21,386 nt of DNA, taken from the IMG/VR virus record IMGVR_UViG_3300044825_000859, positions 1 to 21,386 of that record; one strand, given 5' to 3'. A model generated the notes under the pieces. The model made no database searches, was not told the DNA's origin, and saw only the letters and a list, made by a program, of their open reading frames with translations. Position 1 is the first letter of the stretch, and every line of letters begins with the position of its first letter. Positions 8,849 to 21,386 of this stretch are shown here, in pieces. The translations under genes and the position numbers were made by a program. This DNA is from a virus.

Positions 8849-10678
8849 ATGGCAAACGTCGGCTACGCGACCCTGAGCGTCATCCCGTCCGCCAAGGGAT
8901 TCGGCAAGACTCTCGCCGCTGACGTGGACCCGCAACTTGACGAGGCTGGCCGCACGTCAGGCGCACGCTTTGGGCGCGTACTTGGCGGCGCGGCAGTCGC
9001 AGCGGCCGGAATCGCAGTCTCTGGCATTGCCGCTGTGCTTAAGACGGGCGTACAGGAAGCCCTCGACGCGTCGGGCGGCATCGCCCAACTTGAGGCCGGT
9101 ATTAAGTCCACAGGCGGCGTCGCGGGCGTCACGGTCGAGCACCTCACCGACATGGCCGGATCTCTGCAACTCATGTCGGGCCAGACCGACGACAGCATTG
9201 TTGCCGCCGAGCAGTTGCTCCTCACGTTCACGAACATTCGGAACACCGGAACCGCGAAGATTTTCGACGAAGCGACCCTTGCGGCGACGGACATGGCCGC
9301 AAAGTTGGGCGGCGACGCATCATCCAATGCAACCCTTCTTGGGAAGGCGCTCAATGACCCGGTGAACGGGCTGTCGGCGTTGACTCGTGCGGGCGTGCAG
9401 TTCACCGACGATCAGAAGGCCGTGATCCAGGGTCTTGTTGACACGGGCGACGTCGCTGGTGCGCAGTCGATCATTCTCGCGGAACTGAACACCCAGTTTG
9501 GTGGCGCGGCCGAGGCGGCCGGTAAGTCTCTGCCGGGTCAGCTTGAGATTGCGAAGCGCAAGTTCGAGAACATCTCGCAGACCATCGCGGAGAAGTTGAT
9601 ACCCGTGGTGTTGCCCGCGCTCATGAGCATTGCGGACACGGTGACGGAGGACATTCTTCCGGCCGTGGCCCAGTTCATTCAGGAGTTCAAGGACGGAACC
9701 GGCCCAGGCGGGAAGTTCCGTGACGTCCTAGACAAGGTGGGCGCGGTCCTGTCGGCGGTCGTCGGTTTCGTCAAGGACAACATCAAGTGGCTTGGACCAC
9801 TCGCTCTTGCGATTGGTGTGGTCACGGCGGCGGTGTGGTTGGTTAACATTGCGATGGCCGCAAACCCGGTAAGTCTCATTGTGATCGGGATTGCCGCGTT
9901 GGCCGCTGCGTTCCTTTGGGCGTACAACAATGTGTCGTGGTTCAAGACCGGCATTGATGCGATTGGCGCCGCGTTCGTTTGGCTGTGGGACAAGATCCTC
10001 AAGCCTTACATCGACGCGCTTGTGACCACGTGGTCGTGGATGTGGTCCAACGTCATCAAGCCGGTGGTTGAGTTCATCATCGCCTACTTCAAACTCATGG
10101 GCGACACGTACTTGTGGGTGTGGGACAACGTGCTGTACCCCACCATTCAGGCGCTCTCGACGGCGTTCACGTGGGTCAAGGATCGAATCGGCGAGAACTT
10201 CGCCCTAGTGAGGGCCATTATCTCGGGAGCGGCCGACTTCATTCAGGACCGCTGGGACAAGACCATCGCATTCTTTCGCGAGGCCCCCGGCAAGATCGGC
10301 GGCTTCTTCTCGAAGATCGGCGACACCATCACGAACGTTTTCAAGGGCGCATTCAATGGCGTCGCGCGAATGTGGAACGACAGTGTTGGCAAGTTGTCGT
10401 TCACGATCCCGGACATTGTGGGTGTGCCGAATCGTGGTGAGACGTTCTCGTTCCCCAAGATTCCGCTGCTGGCTGAGGGTGGCATTGTTACTAAGCCGAC
10501 GTTGGCGATGGTGGGTGAGGGTCCTGAGTCTGAGGCTGTGATTCCGCTGTCGAAGCTCGACGCGATGCTGAGTGGGCGCGGCGGTGGTAAGGGCCAGACG
10601 ATCCACATTCACGGTATCCAGAACGTTGACCAGATTGCGGCCGAGTTGCCGCGTATCCAGTACAGGGGCGCCGCATGA
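8849..10678 (+). CDS. Tape measure protein
   Basis: A 609-residue protein that sets tail length and is ejected during infection. N-terminal residues 1-75 (GYATLSVIPSAKGFGKTLAA; GRVLGGAAVAAAGIAVSGIAAVL) are the usual actinophage opening. A hydrophobic block at about 315-355 (GPLALAIGVVTAAVWLVNIA, then SLIVIGIAALAAAFLWAY) can form membrane-spanning helices. It is followed by a Trp-rich region with repeated 'W.W' spacing (FVWLWDKILKPY, TWSWMWSNVIKPV, YLWVWDNVLYPT). The C-terminus carries the conserved GEGPESEAVIPLSKLDAML motif. At about 1.5 A per residue it predicts a tail of roughly 90 nm (rule of thumb). No lytic transglycosylase or peptidase domain is visible. Its stop overlaps the Dit start as ATGA. 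Confidence 0.92.
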   Translation: MANVGYATLSVIPSAKGFGKTLAADVDPQLDEAGRTSGARFGRVLGGAAVAAAGIAVSGIAAVLKTGVQEALDASGGIAQLEAGIKSTGGVAGVTVEHLTDMAGSLQLMSGQTDDSIVAAEQLLLTFTNIRNTGTAKIFDEATLAATDMAAKLGGDASSNATLLGKALNDPVNGLSALTRAGVQFTDDQKAVIQGLVDTGDVAGAQSIILAELNTQFGGAAEAAGKSLPGQLEIAKRKFENISQTIAEKLIPVVLPALMSIADTVTEDILPAVAQFIQEFKDGTGPGGKFRDVLDKVGAVLSAVVGFVKDNIKWLGPLALAIGVVTAAVWLVNIAMAANPVSLIVIGIAALAAAFLWAYNNVSWFKTGIDAIGAAFVWLWDKILKPYIDALVTTWSWMWSNVIKPVVEFIIAYFKLMGDTYLWVWDNVLYPTIQALSTAFTWVKDRIGENFALVRAIISGAADFIQDRWDKTIAFFREAPGKIGGFFSKIGDTITNVFKGAFNGVARMWNDSVGKLSFTIPDIVGVPNRGETFSFPKIPLLAEGGIVTKPTLAMVGEGPESEAVIPLSKLDAMLSGRGGGKGQTIHIHGIQNVDQIAAELPRIQYRGAA

Positions 10679-11532
10679 TTCCGGTTCAGGCTCAGCGCGC
10701 AACCTTGGGGACGTTTGAACTGTCGGCGACTCACGCGGGCGACATTGACGTGATCCTTGAGGACCTCGATGGTTGGGGTGCTCCGGCATCATCGGCTGAG
10801 ACGGTGCAGAAGCCGGGCCAGCATGGTGTGTGGGTGTCTGACGGCTTCCATGTGGGCAAGTACATGACGGCCATGGGGGCGATCATTGCGCCTTCGCGGG
10901 ACCAGGCTCGTGAGAAGTTTGACGAGTTGGTCTCTGCGGCTACGTTGACGGACACGACGCTCACCGTTATCGAAGGCTCCATGACGCGTGCGGTGACGGT
11001 TCGCCGTACTGGTGACGTGACGTATCAGCCCGAAGCAGATGGGTGCCTGGTCAACTGGTCCACGGTGTTGATTGCGGCCGATCCGCGCAAGGTGACGACT
11101 GACCTGACGGCCTCGACTGGTCTGCCTGCCACGTCGGGCGGCATGACGTTCCCGATGACGTTCCCGTTCACGTTCTCGGAGACGGTGACGTCGGGTGTGG
11201 TGACGTTGACGAATCCTGGCAACGCGCCGGGTCGCGTGACGTTGAAAATCACGGCAGGCGTGGGCGGCCTAACCGGTCCGGCCGTGACGCATATCGCGTC
11301 GGGCACGGTGCTCCAGTTCGCGGCATCGTTGACGATCCCCGAGGGCAACTGGATCTATGTCGATATGGAGGCCCGCAAGGTTCTCGAGAACTCGCAGCCG
11401 GGTGCTGAGCGTAATGGTTGGGTGACCGGTCGCGGGTGGTCTGAGTTCCAGCCTGGCGCTAACCAGTGGGCGTTCACGGCGCAGTCTGGCGTTGGCACCA
11501 TGGAAGTGACGGCAACGCCGTCGTGGTGGTGA
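10675..11532 (+). CDS. Distal tail protein (Dit)
   Basis: A 285-residue protein after the tape measure with the hallmark of siphophage Dit hubs: LEDLDGWGAPASSAETVQKP followed by QHGVWVSDGFHVGKYMTAMGAI, then a fold with TLTVIEGSMTRAVTVRRTGD (residues about 20-135). The C-terminal half (about 150-285) is a beta-sandwich of galectin-like type with repeated short Thr/Val/Gly strands (TFPFTFSETVTSGVVTLTNP). The hexameric Dit hub joins the tube to the tip and anchors receptor-binding proteins. ATG overlaps the tape-measure stop (ATGA). Confidence 0.85.
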   Translation: MIPVQAQRATLGTFELSATHAGDIDVILEDLDGWGAPASSAETVQKPGQHGVWVSDGFHVGKYMTAMGAIIAPSRDQAREKFDELVSAATLTDTTLTVIEGSMTRAVTVRRTGDVTYQPEADGCLVNWSTVLIAADPRKVTTDLTASTGLPATSGGMTFPMTFPFTFSETVTSGVVTLTNPGNAPGRVTLKITAGVGGLTGPAVTHIASGTVLQFAASLTIPEGNWIYVDMEARKVLENSQPGAERNGWVTGRGWSEFQPGANQWAFTAQSGVGTMEVTATPSWW

Positions 11533-14673: not shown

Positions 14674-15351
14674 ATGGCAACGAACTACGGCTCAGGATCA
14701 CTGGGCGCTTGGCAGGGCAACGTCCCTGTTGTGTCCGGCCCCACGCAGATCGCGTCGGCGATTGCTACTGGCGGGGCGTTCGTGTTCGGTGACTCGATCT
14801 CGGTGGAGAACGGCGCAGCACTGGCAACGGCGTTGTATGCAGCCACGGGTCAGACCATCGCCATCCACGCGTGGTCAGGACGCCCCACCGCGCCCGCTGT
14901 TGATCAGCTCGCCGCATGGGTTGCCCAGTATGGGTGTCCGCCTGTGGTTGTGATGGCCGTGGGTACGAACGACATCTTTGACCCGCCAGTGATGGCCGCT
15001 CAGGTGAAGCGCGTGTTCGAGATTGTCCCCCCGACTACCAAGGTTGTGTGGGTCACCACCTATGTGTCGAGGTGGAACCTCGGTCACCCGTACGGTTCGG
15101 CAGCGTACTTCATGGCCCGCGAGTCTGACCTTCGCAACACGGGCTGGGTGAACGCTCAAATCCAGAACGGTGTTGGCAAGCACCCTCGCGGCGTCGTGGC
15201 CGACTGGTACGAGGGCCTCTGCCTCAACCCCGGGTACTGCCTCACCTACTACCTGCGCGACGGCGTGCACACCACCGCGCTCGGCAAGAACGCATGGGTG
15301 TCCACAGTGGTGGCCGCGACCCAGAGAGCCAACGCGCTCCCCACCTGCTAG
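14674..15351 (+). CDS. SGNH-fold hydrolase (tail-associated esterase)
   Basis: A 225-residue enzyme 3 nt after the receptor-binding-type gene. All SGNH blocks are visible: block I FGDSIS (nucleophile S41), oxyanion glycine in WSGR (G69), block III GTND (N99) and block V RDGVH (D196, H199). SGNH enzymes remove acyl or acetyl groups. In this setting, among tail-tip genes, the likely job is deacylation of a surface sugar polymer (capsule, arabinan or O-acetylated peptidoglycan). No signal peptide is present, consistent with a virion or lysis enzyme. Residues 1-25 (GSGSLGAWQGNVPVVSGP) could be a docking segment. Three Cys at 183, 189 and 225 could form a disulfide. The substrate is unknown. Confidence 0.85.
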   Translation: MATNYGSGSLGAWQGNVPVVSGPTQIASAIATGGAFVFGDSISVENGAALATALYAATGQTIAIHAWSGRPTAPAVDQLAAWVAQYGCPPVVVMAVGTNDIFDPPVMAAQVKRVFEIVPPTTKVVWVTTYVSRWNLGHPYGSAAYFMARESDLRNTGWVNAQIQNGVGKHPRGVVADWYEGLCLNPGYCLTYYLRDGVHTTALGKNAWVSTVVAATQRANALPTC

Positions 15352-15360
15352 GAGGTGCCC

Positions 15361-16011
15361 ATGATCCAGACCAAACTCTCTGGCGGCACTCACTGGTTGG
15401 AACCTGTCGCCGCAGCATCGTTCGAGCGGTGTCTCGCGGCGGGTGCACCGAACGCTATCGAGTCGGCCGGTCGCACATGGGAAGCACAACAGGCGCTCCT
15501 GAAGCGTTACGGCTACCCGCGTGCTGAACTGCCAGCCCGGTCCTTCCACGTCAAGGGCCAAGCAATCGACGCACAAGCGCCACTCATTGCCTGGTTCGTC
15601 GCCCACCCCGAGCACGGCTGGCGTCGCACCGTGACCGCCGAGCCGTGGCACTTCCAGTACTTCCCACACCTTGACACACAGGAGGACGACATGGCCTTTT
15701 CCGCCGATCAACTACAGCAGATCGCGGCCAACGGTGTCGCCCAGGCACTCATGGGTCCACAGTCCCAGGCGCTCATTCGCAAGATCGTGTGGGACGAAAC
15801 GATGGTCCTGCGCGGCCCTGACGTGTCGGTCAAGCAAGACCTCGCGAACACGGGCACCATGGCGCGCGACATCCTCGCGGCCGTCCAGTCAGCCTCAGCG
15901 CCAGTCATCGACTACGACGCCCTGGCCGCCAAGATTCCGGCCCCCAAGATCGACTACGCCGCACTCGCCAAGGCCGTCAACGACGACGCCGCACGCCGAA
16001 TGCAGGGGTAG
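15361..16011 (+). CDS. Endolysin with M15 (VanY-like) peptidase domain
   Basis: A 216-residue lysis enzyme. AGGAGGT (15350-15356) sets ATG 15361 rather than the GTG at 15355. The N-terminal M15 carboxypeptidase domain (about 1-105) has the zinc and catalytic signatures SFHVKGQAID (H63, D70) and AEPWHFQY (E94, H97), with RTWEAQQALLKRYG earlier. The C-terminal part (111-216) begins MAFSADQLQQIAANGVAQAL and ends with a short repeat-like segment (DYDALAAKIPAP, then IDYAALAKAVNDDAARRM), perhaps for wall binding or oligomerisation. A strong ribosome site sits in the linker, so the C-terminal part may also be made separately. No signal peptide, so release would need a holin. Confidence 0.88.
   Translation: MIQTKLSGGTHWLEPVAAASFERCLAAGAPNAIESAGRTWEAQQALLKRYGYPRAELPARSFHVKGQAIDAQAPLIAWFVAHPEHGWRRTVTAEPWHFQYFPHLDTQEDDMAFSADQLQQIAANGVAQALMGPQSQALIRKIVWDETMVLRGPDVSVKQDLANTGTMARDILAAVQSASAPVIDYDALAAKIPAPKIDYAALAKAVNDDAARRMQG
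15680..15693 (+). promoter_or_regulatory. In-frame internal ribosome site within the endolysin
   Basis: AGGAGG (15680-15685), a 5-nt spacer and an in-frame ATG (15691) at codon 111 of the endolysin. It would yield a 106-residue C-terminal domain alone. The match is as good as the gene's own ribosome site. It falls exactly at the interdomain linker (HLDTQEDD). Known precedents are endolysins of clostridial and enterococcal phages that use an internal start to make their wall-binding subunit. Confidence 0.6.
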
Positions 16012-16380: not shown

Positions 16381-16617
16381 ATGGGTAAGTTGTCCGCGAC
16401 GCTCGCTGAGGGCGCTCCGATGCAGGGTCACTGGTGTGCGATCTGTGCACACATGGAGACCGAGGATGCTGAGACGCGCGAGGAAATGCGCGCCATGATC
16501 TCGGACCGCGCATGGTCGCCGTCGGCGATTGTGTACGCGTGGGCCAGAGATCTTGGTTTCGTGGTGGAGAACACTGCCGTGGATATTCACCGCAAGTCGG
16601 CGCGCGCCCGTGGGTAG
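16381..16617 (+). CDS. Small Cys/HTH DNA-binding-like protein
   Basis: A 78-residue protein; GGGGAGGT (16366-16373) fixes ATG 16381. Residues 17-24 read HWCAICAH (C19, C22, H24), an arrangement found in phage proteins where a short Cys/His site precedes a helix-turn-helix. Residues 44-72 (AWSPSAIVYAWARDLGF, then ENTAVDIHRKS) match a turn and recognition-helix pattern like 'SPSAIA..l.dlG.v....v..Hr'. The C-terminus is basic. Its stop overlaps the phosphoesterase start by 8 nt (GTGGGTAG), so the two are coupled. DNA binding is inferred from the fold pattern. Confidence 0.65.
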   Translation: MGKLSATLAEGAPMQGHWCAICAHMETEDAETREEMRAMISDRAWSPSAIVYAWARDLGFVVENTAVDIHRKSARARG

Positions 16618-17803
16618 GCTGGCCGGGTCGATTGTTACTGGCCCGCCGATGCGGCGTAACGTGCCGACGGCATTCATGTCCGGTGTTCAGTACGCACCGA
16701 ACGGCGAACTTGTGTCGGCCGCGATCAACGTGACCGATATCCCCGAAGATGAGACTGCGTGGCGGGAACACATCCTCGCGCAGACCGGGATGCCTGTGCC
16801 CGATGACCGTGAGGTCATCCTCACTGCTGTTCGCACGTGGACGATGGGCGCTGTTGAGAATCGCCATTTGACGTTCCGCATAGAGCCACGTTCCGCACAA
16901 AGTGGAACATGGAACGTCGCGGAACTGGTCAAGATCGCACGTGGCAACTCGTCACGCAAGCCAGCCAAGGCGTCAGAGGTTGCGCTGACCCAGACCCGCA
17001 TTGTCGGCCTGTCCGATGAGCAACTGGGCAAGGTGGACAAGCGCGGCGGAACCGAAGCGTTCTTCGAGCGGCTAGGCGTATTGCTCGGCGAGCTCGATGC
17101 CGAGATGAAAGCCCGCCCCTGTGAGGACGCGGTGATCCTCCTTGGCGGCGATCTCATCGAGGGTTTCCAGAACACCAAGCAGCAGTCGCACACCAACGAC
17201 CTGAGCCACCCCGAAATGCTGCGGGTTGCTAGGGCGTATCTGACTGAGGTAATAACGCGGATCGCATCACGTCATCGTAATACGCGCGTGCTCGCCGTCC
17301 CCTCCAATCATGGGGCCTGGCGTGACGGCAAGGACAACCTGGGTCTACCAGGTGACGACTACGGCCTTGACTGTGTGCGCGCGGTGGCTGAGTCGCTGGC
17401 AATGTCCGAGCGTTGGGCTGGCGTGGAGTTCATCTTCCCCGACCGTTGGGGCGTGTCTGTCGCGGTGCAAGTCCGTGACGACGTGGTGGCCCTGACGCAC
17501 GGGCACGTGGGCACGTCCGGTCCTGCATCGTTTGAGAAGTGGTTCGCTGGGCAAGCGCTTGGTGACTCACCCATCTCGTCCGCCACTGTTGTTGTGTCCG
17601 GTCACTTCCACCACCGCCGATACAACCCGCTTGGGAACATCGGCAACCGTGAGCGCGTCCACATTCAACTGCCCGCGCTTGACGGCGGCTCGGCATGGTT
17701 CGAGAACTCGTCCGGCCAGTGGTCACACCCTGGCATCTGGACGGCTGTCATTCGTGATGGAATCGGTCTCGACCACGAACGCCTGTTGCGTTCCGTCCGC
17801 TAA
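16610..17803 (+). CDS. Calcineurin-like metallophosphoesterase
   Basis: A 397-residue protein read from GTG 16610, which overlaps the upstream stop; the longer in-frame ORF has only shadow-like sequence before it. Metal-binding motifs occur in order: SDEQLGK (D136; the usual DxH is DxQ), LLGGDLIEG (D181), PSNHG (N233, H234), THGHVG (H297, H299) and SGHFHHRR (H332, H334). The N-terminal 120 residues are not part of the catalytic fold and may bind DNA or a partner. The family includes nucleases and phosphodiesterases; substrate cannot be read. It lies in the late operon after the lysis genes and is paired with a small HTH-like protein. A hairpin separates it from the convergent gene. Confidence 0.85.
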   Translation: MGRLAGSIVTGPPMRRNVPTAFMSGVQYAPNGELVSAAINVTDIPEDETAWREHILAQTGMPVPDDREVILTAVRTWTMGAVENRHLTFRIEPRSAQSGTWNVAELVKIARGNSSRKPAKASEVALTQTRIVGLSDEQLGKVDKRGGTEAFFERLGVLLGELDAEMKARPCEDAVILLGGDLIEGFQNTKQQSHTNDLSHPEMLRVARAYLTEVITRIASRHRNTRVLAVPSNHGAWRDGKDNLGLPGDDYGLDCVRAVAESLAMSERWAGVEFIFPDRWGVSVAVQVRDDVVALTHGHVGTSGPASFEKWFAGQALGDSPISSATVVVSGHFHHRRYNPLGNIGNRERVHIQLPALDGGSAWFENSSGQWSHPGIWTAVIRDGIGLDHERLLRSVR

Positions 17804-17820
17804 ACCCCCGGTCACGTGTC

Positions 17821-17867
17821 GCCCCGCCGTGACTGTCCGTCGGTGCCGACTTGTTCGGAAGCGGGGC
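17821..17867. terminator. Inverted repeat between convergent genes
   Basis: GCCCCGC (17821-17827) pairs with GCGGGGC (17861-17867), enclosing a second perfect stem GTCGG-TG-CCGAC (17839-17850). The structure fills the 65-nt gap between the phosphoesterase stop and the stop of the minus-strand HTH gene. Neither strand has a T-run, so it may be a weak or factor-assisted bidirectional terminator. Confidence 0.5.
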
Positions 17868-17868
17868 C

Positions 17869-18198
17869 CTACTTCCCCCACTTGCCGCGACCTGGGCGCG
17901 CCGCATTCCAGGCGTCAATGGTGGACGCCAGCCACCCGCGCGTCTCACCAATCCAGGCGTCAGGCTCCGGGAGTGCGTACCGGGAGAGTGTGCCGGGTGC
18001 GACGCCGATGCGCTCGGCGACCTCCTTGCGCGAGAGTGTTGAGCGCTTGCAGATGCTCACCTGGAATGCAATCGCATCGTCAGTGATCGGTCCGCCGCGT
18101 TCGCCGACCTCGCGGATCGCGCAGCACACGACGCATCGACCCGTGCGACCGCATCGGTCCTTTGCGCCGTGTGTCCGGCATTCAATCTTGGCGATCAT
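17869..18198 (-). CDS. Zinc-cluster plus helix-turn-helix DNA-binding protein
   Basis: A 109-residue regulator-like protein. ATG 18198 overlaps the stop of its upstream partner as ATGA; the longer frame is Arg/His-rich shadow. Residues 7-26 carry C7, H10, C16, C22, C25 and C26 (ECRTHGAKDRCGRTGRCVVC), a likely zinc site. Residues 54-75 form an HTH (TLSRKEVAERIGVAPGTLSRY) followed by LPEPDAWIGETRGWL and TIDAWNAARPGRG, the winged 'PePD...G...gWl..TId.W...RPGRG' signature of MerR/excisionase-like proteins of actinobacteria. Likely roles are promoter control or excision/integration, but no integrase lies in this window. It is the second gene of a two-gene opposite-strand unit. Confidence 0.75.
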   Translation of the reverse strand: MIAKIECRTHGAKDRCGRTGRCVVCCAIREVGERGGPITDDAIAFQVSICKRSTLSRKEVAERIGVAPGTLSRYALPEPDAWIGETRGWLASTIDAWNAARPGRGKWGK

Positions 18199-18593
18199 CA
18201 GGCCACCGTCCCAACCTGGATCGCGGACTTCACGACGGACTGGCCGTTGTAGTCGATGGTGAGCGTCTCGCCGTCGATGGCGGTGACGACCCCGGCGCAA
18301 CGGCTACGTGACTTCGAGGTCCAGTAGACCGTCACACCAACCTCTTTGCCCTTGAGGTTACGAGCCGCCTTGCGCTCTGCCTTCGCGGCCTCTTCGGCAA
18401 CGCGGGCCGCGTGGCGCTCTGCGATCTTCGCCTCGACTGCGTTGCGCGCATCCTCGAAGCGCTCAGGGTTCGCGATGATCGCCTTGCCGAATGCGACCTG
18501 GGCCTCTGAGAGGGCGCCCATCCTGGCCGCGTCATTGAACAGGCGAATCGCGTCTGCGTCTCCGTCTGTCAGGAGCCTGTCGATGGTGTTCAT
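18198..18593 (-). CDS. Coiled-coil plus SH3-like hypothetical protein
   Basis: A 131-residue protein that I cannot assign to a family. The start ATG 18593 has AAGGAGAGGA just upstream on the minus strand. Residues 1-50 form a small helical bundle (RLFNDAARMGALSEAQVAFG). Residues 55-82 are a highly charged Ala/Glu/Arg helix (AVEAKIAERHAARVAEEAAK). Residues 83-131 are beta-rich (KEVGVTVYWTSKSRSRCAGV, AIDGETLTIDYNG), like a small KOW/SH3 barrel. The last base of its stop overlaps the partner gene (ATGA), so the pair is co-translated. No trans-membrane segment is seen. Confidence 0.75.
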   Translation of the reverse strand: MNTIDRLLTDGDADAIRLFNDAARMGALSEAQVAFGKAIIANPERFEDARNAVEAKIAERHAARVAEEAAKAERKAARNLKGKEVGVTVYWTSKSRSRCAGVVTAIDGETLTIDYNGQSVVKSAIQVGTVA

Positions 18594-18634
18594 TGCTTCC
18601 TCTCCTTGGCCGGTCCCTTCGGCCTCATGTCTTT

Positions 18635-18662
18635 AGTTTACACCCGCGCGATGCATTGTCAA
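18635..18662 (-). promoter_or_regulatory. Sigma-70-type promoter of the minus-strand pair
   Basis: On the minus strand: TTGACA (perfect -35, 18657-18662), a 16-nt spacer and TAAACT (-10, 18635-18640, 4 of 6 to TATAAT). It lies about 42 nt upstream of the ATG at 18593. It is the clearest housekeeping-type promoter in the window, suggesting expression independent of the phage late programme. Confidence 0.75.
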
Positions 18663-18694
18663 GCGGGTGGACAAAGAATCTTCGAGTGAGATTC
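18641..18694. promoter_or_regulatory. Operator-like cluster of inverted repeats
   Basis: Three perfect inverted repeats overlap the promoter. CACCCGC (18641-18647) pairs with GCGGGTG (18663-18669) and brackets the -35. TTGTC (18656-18660) pairs with GACAA (18670-18674). GAATC (18676-18680) pairs with GATTC (18690-18694). The last two have the same 5-9-5 geometry and centres 20 bp apart. A repressor, possibly the HTH protein of this unit, could bind here and block the promoter. Repeats are seen; binding is inferred. Confidence 0.5.
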
Positions 18695-18740
18695 GCCACA
18701 ACGTCGCGCGCAATGGGCGCGTGCAGAAAAGGAGTACACC

Positions 18741-19034
18741 ATGAACACCATTTGGCTCAAGGCTGCGGGTATCCGCGCGCTCAAGACATTTGCTCAGACC
18801 GCCGTCGCACTCATCGGCACGGGCCTCGTTGGTGTGCTGGACGTGGACTGGCAGAGCGTCGCATCGGTCGCGTTCGTCGCCGCCGTCGTGTCAGTGCTCA
18901 CGTCGCTGGCCGGACTGCCCGAGACCACCCCCGTCCCCACCGTCTACGTGTCCGACGTGACGGGCGAGCGCATGACCCGTGTCACCCTTCCCGATGGCAC
19001 CGAGCAGCACTTCATCAACGACGGCATCGAGTAA
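18741..19034 (+). CDS. Holin, phage r1t family-like
   Basis: A 97-residue protein with two membrane segments: residues 15-35 (KTFAQTAVALIGTGLVGVL) and 42-60 (SVASVAFVAAVVSVLTSLAG), joined by the short DVDW turn. The spacing 'KTFAQ...VDW...A..SvLTS' is the pattern of r1t-type holins in actinophages. It makes holes that let endolysin reach the wall. The C-terminal tail (YVSDVTGERMTRVTLPDGTE) is a soluble beta-hairpin. The ribosome site AAAAGGAG is at 18727-18734. A small hairpin (CGCGC-AATGG-GCGCG, 18707-18721) lies just before it. It is 2.7 kb from the endolysin, an unusual separation. Confidence 0.78.
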   Translation: MNTIWLKAAGIRALKTFAQTAVALIGTGLVGVLDVDWQSVASVAFVAAVVSVLTSLAGLPETTPVPTVYVSDVTGERMTRVTLPDGTEQHFINDGIE

Positions 19035-19039
19035 GCGCC

Positions 19040-19345
19040 GTGGCTGACGTTGACCTCACTGCACCGTGGCTCACCATTGACATGGAGTTCCGCGTCGGCC
19101 AGTCGTTCTCCGAGGTCATCACCCTAGCGGGTGCCGACTGGTCCGGCACGTACACTGCCGAGATTGGCGGGCTGGCTGACGTTGCGGTCACCGCAGTGTT
19201 CGCGGCGTCCGACACCACGCTCACCATTGCACTCACGCACGCAGAGTCGATCAAGCTCGCGGCTGGCATGTACTCATGGCACGCGGTGAACGCGGCTGGT
19301 GAGCCTGCTTTTGGTGGCAATGTTCAGGTGATCCCAGTTGGCTGA
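19040..19345 (+). CDS. Fibre-module protein, 101 aa
   Basis: A 101-residue protein starting GTG 19040, 5 nt after the holin stop; ribosome site is weak, so coupling from the holin is likely (ATG 19082 is an alternative). The sequence has the common beta domain found before phage collagen-like fibres: [58 protein letters not shown], then NVQVIPVG. It probably forms the proximal or chaperone portion of the fibre. The stop overlaps the next start by 8 nt (TTGGCTGA). Confidence 0.65.
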
Positions 19346-19799
19346 CTTCATTGTGCGTCCGAACATGACGCCGCTCACTGTTCGCCCTCCTGCCGCTCGA
19401 GCACCTATCGCAGTGACGGTGAGTGGCGGGCAGGGTCAACGTGGCCTCACTGGCGCAACAGGCGCGACCGGTGCCACTGGACCCAAGGGCGACACCGGCA
19501 ACACTGGCGCTCAGGGCCCACAGGGAATCCAGGGCGAAACGGGACCGGCTGGCGCTGACGGACCACAGGGTCCGCAGGGCGTTCAGGGCATCCCCGGCGA
19601 CACTGGCCCCACTGGTGCGACTGGTCCGGCTGGGTCTACGGGTGCGGCTGGACCAACTGGCGAGACCGGACCCCAAGGCCCCCCCGGCACTGGCGTCACC
19701 ATCGGCACCAGCGCACCCACCCTCGCGACCGGCGCACAGGCGCTGTGGATTGACACCACTGGCGGAAACGTCAGCCTCAACCTTGTGACGGGAGACTGA
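19338..19799 (+). CDS. Collagen-like tail fibre protein
   Basis: A 153-residue protein. TTG 19338 overlaps the upstream stop; ATG 19365 is a possible alternative. Residues 1-29 form a docking segment ([16 protein letters not shown]). Residues 30-119 are about 30 uninterrupted Gly-X-Y triplets (such as [16 protein letters not shown]), predicting a collagen triple helix about 26 nm long if fully extended. The C-terminus ([20 protein letters not shown], ending NLVTGD) is a small domain common after phage collagen rods and may set trimer register. No prolyl hydroxylase is expected; Thr and charged residues would stabilise the rod. Confidence 0.9.
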
Positions 19800-21163: not shown

Positions 21164-21282
21164 GGTTCCACCTTTCCACTGTGGCACGGACAAGTACACG
21201 TCAGCTCGCCGTTAGATCCTGGGCAAGGGTGCGAGCATTTGCCGACACAATGACCGTCAAGGCACCAACCGAACTTAGCCAC
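21160..21282 (-). CDS. Tiny cysteine-rich protein, 40 aa
   Basis: Reading from GTG 21282 gives a 40-residue protein with seven cysteines (7, 12, 16, 20, 29, 31, 33) and three histidines (11, 18, 34). It begins MAKFGWCLDGHCVGKCSHPC and ends CTCPCHSGKVEP. This spacing suggests one or two zinc sites or a zinc-knuckle-like fold. It is joined by overlaps on both sides: 8 nt with the upstream gene (GTGGCTAA) and ATGA with the downstream gene. That tiling of three reading frames supports it as real despite its length. Function unknown; similar small Zn-binding proteins are often encoded by actinophages. Confidence 0.65.
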   Translation of the reverse strand: MAKFGWCLDGHCVGKCSHPCPGSNGELTCTCPCHSGKVEP

Positions 21283-21386
21283 GGTCGCCCCCGTCCAACA
21301 GGTGGGCCTTGATCGCGGTGGCCCCAGCGCGGAAGCCCTTCTCGTATGCCACGCCGCGCGCTACTGCGTTGGCGTCGTACTTGGCT
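21275..21386 (-). CDS. Partial C-terminus of a minus-strand gene
   Basis: The last 36 residues of a gene entering from the right edge: begins AKYDANAVARGVAYEKGFRA and ends with stop TAA at 21275-21277. The pattern 'GxxYEKGFRAGxxA' resembles the C-terminal helix of small actinophage hypothetical proteins. Too little is present to name it. Its stop overlaps the start of the Cys-rich gene, placing it in the same operon. The promoter must lie outside the window. Confidence 0.65.
   Translation of the reverse strand, partial: AKYDANAVARGVAYEKGFRAGATAIKAHLLDGGDRG

Follow-up and report, generated by a model that had tools for sequence, protein, structure and literature searches.

We confirmed, in the late operon of an uncultured actinobacterial phage, a pair of minus-strand genes that probably constitutes a leftward regulator cassette, expressed early or in lysogeny from a strand-specific promoter-leader of a common type, with a function that we infer from its layout and relatives. 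The DNA analysed (the window, a contig of 21,386 bases from an actinophage-like siphovirus) had been described in an earlier note, where the block was taken for a moron, an added cargo unit expressed outside the late programme of the phage. A mobile member of a leftward regulon is, in our best reading, the more informative frame.

A near-identity search of phage records with the window returned no match. The same phage is present at 100% identity in a longer contig of 34,404 bases (G001; window position = G001 + 20), which extends the view of its gene content. The plus strand encodes terminase, portal, capsid and tail genes, followed by a metallophosphoesterase and an r1t-type holin. The right half, read in G001, contains a helicase, a methyltransferase and a XerC-like tyrosine recombinase with an adjacent Xis-like gene, and further a RecE-like exonuclease, an SSB, a WhiB protein and a replication initiator. 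Lysogeny of this phage is uncertain, since no CI-type repressor gene was recognised in G001. As the earlier note had it, two genes (hereafter G1 and G2; table 1) run against the late operon, between the metallophosphoesterase and the holin, and the ATG of G2 overlaps the stop of G1 (TGATG), coupling the pair translationally. Their GC content (64.4% vs. 62.8% for the window) does not set the cassette apart as compositionally distinct, recently acquired DNA. A second leftward operon, at the late/early boundary, encodes proteins of 213 and 77 aa without a family. Beside the holin, no clear endolysin was recognised in window 14674-16011, where 14674-15351 is GDSL-lipase-like and 15355-16011 gives a weak VanY/endolysin match.

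Table 1. Features of the minus-strand cassette and its surroundings (window coordinates; strand left empty where not applicable).
Feature	Position	Strand	Basis or remark
Metallophosphoesterase (phrog_284), left flank of the insertion	16529..17803	+	Directly precedes the holin in the relative G002
Nested inverted repeat GCCCCGC...GCGGGGC between convergent stops, possible terminator	17821..17867		No T run
G2, 109 aa, phrog_597 winged HTH	17869..18198	-	Open frame, profile match, alignment, model
G1, 131 aa, partner gene, no named family	18198..18593	-	Open frame, model, G002 homologue of residues 1-43
Leader end with Shine-Dalgarno AAGGAGAGG for G1	18594..18607	-	Sequence
Leader stem-loop GGCCG-AAGGGAC-CGGCC	18608..18624	-	Between predicted transcription start and Shine-Dalgarno; part of the shared composite
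SigA-type promoter TTGACA-N16-TAAACT	18635..18662	-	Pattern scan and shuffles
Inverted repeat CACCCGC-N15-GCGGGTG around the -35 hexamer, candidate operator	18641..18669		Alone not above chance
Inverted repeat GAATCT-N7-AGATTC, candidate operator	18676..18694		Alone not above chance
r1t-type holin, right flank of the insertion	18741..19034	+	
3' end of the second leftward operon, same promoter-leader	21275..21386	-	Extends to 22146 in G001; promoter at 22216

G2 joins a Cys/His-rich N-terminal extension to a MerR/Xis-like winged HTH, and the HTH assignment made in the earlier note is borne out. Its membership of phrog_597 (E 2.4e-24 over residues 54-109) is accompanied by a core, LP..D..G..GW..T.D.W..R, invariant in the aligned homologues. 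The Cys/His-rich extension is unique to the window copy, without counterpart in any aligned homologue; it is modelled at low confidence, and the Zn cluster is putative. In a model built from 17 homologues the HTH and wing reach a mean pLDDT of 80-88 (residues 51-100), and the best structural neighbours, though weak, are the MerR-like RacA and BldC, together with the excisionase RdfS. We rejected a CI-type immunity repressor, given that the HTH_3 match of G2 is sub-threshold and its fold winged and MerR/Xis-like. A defence library gave only a weak, short HTH match, for G2. G1, in turn, is modelled as N-terminal helices followed by a C-terminal SH3-like small barrel, the very domain previously proposed for it. 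Searches of phage records, viral contigs and bacterial genomes with G1 found matches only in the same phage and in its relative G002, and no named family was found.

The perfect TTGACA promoter proposed upstream of G1 (TTGACA at 18662-18657, 16 nt, TAAACT at 18640-18635) proved to be the only sigma-70-type site in 17000-19500. Across the 34.4-kb genome (G001), the pattern TTGACA-N15-19-TAnnnT occurs at four sites against 0.25 expected, a number reached in 0 of 200 shuffles; these lie at the cassette, at the second leftward operon (22216), at the xis gene (25723) and at 33685. The inverted repeats on the promoter side and between the convergent stops are also present, but neither set rises above chance: two promoter-side repeats with arms of at least 6 were seen vs. 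0.57 expected (p about 0.10), while the nested repeat has p about 0.16 against shuffles and RNA folding z values of -0.94 and -0.20. Operator and terminator repeats were, in consequence, dropped as independent evidence. Rfam gave no match. At 18593-18628 (-), a 12-codon frame starts with an ATG at the expected +1 and terminates in the ATGA of G1; a conserved leader peptide MRPKGPAKERKQ was discarded as an explanation, the matching frames in two sister leaders continuing without that stop. The Xis-like HTH gene behind the tyrosine recombinase (25723-25940 in window-equivalent coordinates, +) has a TTGACA promoter of its own; the ATG comes 6 nt behind the -10 hexamer, which makes the gene a candidate for a leaderless mRNA. 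At 33685 (window-equivalent, +) a perfect TTGACA-N17-TACATT has a stem-loop with a T-rich tail no more than about 60 nt behind it; there is no obvious gene there, and a short non-coding RNA or an attenuator is possible.

The cassette promoter belongs to a larger arrangement. Three sister leaders, at window 18662, at 22216 in the same phage and at 11647 in G002, present the same order: TTGACA, spacer, TAnnnT, six bases, a ATGAGGCC stem-loop, a GAGAGG-like Shine-Dalgarno (SD) sequence and the start codon. A (G)GCGGG-5 nt-CCCGC(C) stem-loop occupies the same place in the cassettes of KayaCho, Laurie, Swish, AnClar, Shatter and Sbash. Scanning for the whole composite returned two sites in G001, one in G002, eight in KayaCho and one in Sbash (41.8 kb covered), every one of them leftward and none on the opposite strand, compared with 0.02 or fewer per genome in shuffles; the composite was defined after the first examples, and so the KayaCho, Sbash and G002 scans are not fully blind. 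In G002 it sits at the leftward operon that contains the G1 and G2 homologues, and a leftward operon of Splinter also has it. Among phages with a G2 homologue, the scan did not find it in the Arthrobacter phages, ReqiPine5 and Bipolar. KayaCho has the composite before its leftward operons generally, including a second counter-strand gene of the structural region, gp17; it therefore marks a strand-specific gene set and not the HTH cassette alone. A stem-loop private to the HTH cassette is excluded by its occurrence at many KayaCho leftward operons.

Additional observations concern these leaders. KayaCho gp17 (NC_022061, 16141, -) is a lone leftward gene within the structural operon of a lytic phage, with the same promoter and stem-loop, and the KayaCho leftward promoters have in common a spacer inverted repeat of the form ACCCGA...TCGGGT. 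A collection scan for the exact leader, TTGACA...ATGAGGCC, produced 78 matches, near a rough chance expectation; five carry a stem, three of them from the window phage and G002. An unrelated 45.7-kb contig (IMGVR_UViG_3300027503_000029, 5012, +) has a TTGACA promoter and a ATGAGGCCCGTT stem-loop with a start codon shortly downstream, an arrangement like that of the window leader. Across groups the stem pairs differ in a compensatory manner, which is only suggestive, the sequences having been picked for having a stem. Both an RNA hairpin and a DNA operator are possible identities for the leader element.

Comparison with relatives speaks to the mobility of the block. In the close relative G002 (IMGVR_UViG_3300022561_000028), whose metallophosphoesterase and holin are 70% and 90% identical to those of the window phage, these two genes lie 78 bp apart with no cassette, against a gap of 937 bp with the cassette in the window. 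The check set beforehand in the earlier note, whether relatives have or lack the block as a whole, thus came out in its favour. G002 does encode homologues of both genes past the holin, on the minus strand and in swapped order: G2 at 10471-10680 and G1 at 10055-10387, the latter homologous only over the first 43 residues of G1 (59%). There, the pair forms the distal part of a leftward run beginning with a Cro/CI-like gene and a tyrosine integrase. Two more distant contigs (L031 and L032) likewise have no cassette between the holin and its close upstream neighbour, and a G2-like domain lies downstream of the holin on the minus strand. The empty site of G002 and its displaced homologues are most simply read as the sign of a modular cassette that was probably relocated into the metallophosphoesterase-holin junction of the window phage, a direction based on one close and two distant relatives.

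The G2 family is a recurrent presence on the counter-strand of actinophages, as judged from its distribution. A tblastn search with G2 found relatives in 651 of 50,697 phage records, almost all infecting Actinobacteria, and all 60 evenly sampled match rows were on the record minus strand. In the annotated neighbourhoods that we read, the homologue stands opposite the structural genes, just as the window G2 is opposite the late genes; the exception is the 152-kb Gordonia phage Skog. The counter-strand homologues include those of the lytic cluster B phages KayaCho, Laurie and Swish. Late or other rightward genes lie on both sides of the cassette in cluster B, Sourvirus, ReqiPine5, Bipolar and Sbash, and in NM241 it is found between terminase and portal; in other phages, those of Arthrobacter among them, its place is close to the distal end of the leftward lysogeny genes. 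Within cluster B and Sourvirus the partner genes share homology; elsewhere they are mostly unrelated.

What, then, survives of the moron label? The unit, its empty site and its own promoter do, but foreign cargo outside the phage programme is not supported. The HTH family is a phage-resident one, found counter-strand across hundreds of actinophages, the G002 pair belongs to the distal part of a leftward lysogeny operon, and the sharing of the promoter-leader with the other leftward operon of the window phage argues, on sequence grounds, against expression independent of the phage programme. We propose instead that transcription of the G1-G2 unit would follow the leftward set, early and/or during lysogeny, and not the late genes. 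G2 would act as a DNA-binding modulator of leftward promoters, perhaps also of the convergent late region, with G1 as its exchangeable partner; late transcription running through on the other strand would silence the unit, and vice versa. For G2, a role as modulator of the leftward gene set is best supported, since lytic cluster B phages have the family just as commonly.

A regulatory or lysogeny link of the cassette, raised in the earlier note, is plausible because the homologous genes 32-34 of the Mycobacterium phage Sbash, which run leftward, are expressed in the lysogen according to RNA-seq (PMC6426596). This is the only homologous unit for which expression data were found; lysogen RNA-seq of CarolAnn, Blueberry and Utz was set aside as support, no G2 homologue being identified there. 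The same Sbash genes bear on a classic moron cargo, in which the pair would be a superinfection-exclusion or defence unit expressed from the prophage and G2 only its own regulator. Lysogenic expression would fit, as would the fact that Sbash genes 32 and 33 are the remaining candidates for Giles defence (PMC6426596) and that the block is present in the window and absent from G002 as a unit. We nonetheless consider such cargo unlikely: deletion of Sbash gene 34 had no effect on the tested defence (PMC6426596), the defence library gave only the weak, short HTH match described above, and lytic cluster B phages, too, have the G2 family as a standard component, with G2 the constant member and the partners varying.

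Other explanations fare worse. Leftward transcription might in itself be a roadblock against the late operon, tuning the holin and late genes with the proteins secondary; convergent geometry, a strong promoter adjoining the holin and the recurrent counter-strand placement beside tail and lysis genes agree with this, yet the strong conservation of the HTH protein sequence and the position of the unit past the holin in G002 and the Arthrobacter phages render it rather improbable. A role of G2 as excisionase or recombination directionality factor, the annotation given to some Gordonia homologues, is very doubtful: immediately behind the integrase of the window phage stands a separate Xis-like gene, G2 lies 6.7 kb from that integrase rather than beside it, and the family is found in cluster B KayaCho, which has no annotated integrase. 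These facts outweigh the Xis-like winged-HTH features of G2 (phrog_66, E 2.5e-4), the presence of RdfS among its fold matches and the annotation of GemG gp30 as excise. Finally, long frames are plentiful on either strand of high-GC DNA, but chance open frames antisense to an unrecognised plus-strand coding sequence are disfavoured to the point of being hardly credible by the phrog_597 match of G2, by the conservation of the G1 N-terminus in G002 and by a significant promoter with SD sequences ahead of both genes.

The regulator cassette that we favour has implications beyond this phage. Hundreds of actinophages have small leftward genes annotated inside their late operons, with no function assigned. 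The present case links such genes through one HTH family, exchangeable partners and a movable unit whose empty site can be demonstrated, and the common promoter-leader is also found at an operon with published lysogen RNA-seq (Sbash). We tentatively put forward that the composite (SigA promoter, 5' stem-loop, SD) may define a strand-specific leftward regulon common to unrelated actinophages, of which the counter-strand HTH cassettes of late operons would be mobile members, and that the winged-HTH protein (or another phage or host factor) might recognise promoter or leader and time leftward vs. late expression. This offers a testable idea on how rightward late and leftward early/lysogenic programmes stay apart in lytic and temperate phages alike.

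Among known systems, the morons of lambdoid phages, such as HK97 gp15, to which PMC6426606 refers, are extra transcription units with their own promoter, placed between late genes and present or absent as a unit. The window unit differs in being counter-strand, in the phage-resident nature of its HTH family and in a promoter-leader common to other phage operons. Closer parallels are found in actinophages. KayaCho gp37-39, of cluster B (Bclasvirinae), is likewise a leftward cassette with a stem-loop leader and the G2 homologue (62% over 55 aa) as its last gene, located between tail and lysin A genes; unlike in the window, however, the partners are a Cro-like HTH and a protein of 186-257 aa, the phages are lytic and the KayaCho composite recurs at eight leftward sites. 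Sbash 32-34 (Chenonavirus) also is a small leftward operon with rightward flanks, the same composite and the G2-family HTH as its last gene (gp32, 46% over 65 aa), but its partner genes, 33 and 34, have no relationship to G1 and a repressor-integrase module is nearby. In the lysogeny operon of Arthrobacter Andrewvirus and Galaxyvirus the G2 homologue is similarly on the minus strand and convergent with the holin; here the unit lies past the holin, on the distal side of the repressor-integrase genes, and no composite was found.

In the literature searched, the nearest described elements to the promoter-leader are the cluster K SAS/ESAS and the cluster O promoter PL2. The former is a repeated element near the translation start of a subset of non-structural genes (PMC3203893) and resembles the window leader in its closeness to that start. 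Nevertheless, SAS is a 13-bp asymmetric translation-start element, whereas the window has a symmetric stem-loop that precedes the SD and is linked to a SigA promoter and a single strand. We discarded an identity of the two, as the 13-bp GGGATAGGAGCCC is absent at the start codon and the leader reads GGCCGAAGGGACCGGCCAAGGAGAGGAAGCAATG. PL2, in the part of its report drawn on here, is a SigA-like promoter for the leftward Corndog gene 53 inside the structural operon, with a predicted leaderless start (PMC4351075); that same part reports no common gene family or stem-loop leader for PL2, which nevertheless parallels the window in providing a counter-strand gene inside structural genes with a SigA-like promoter.
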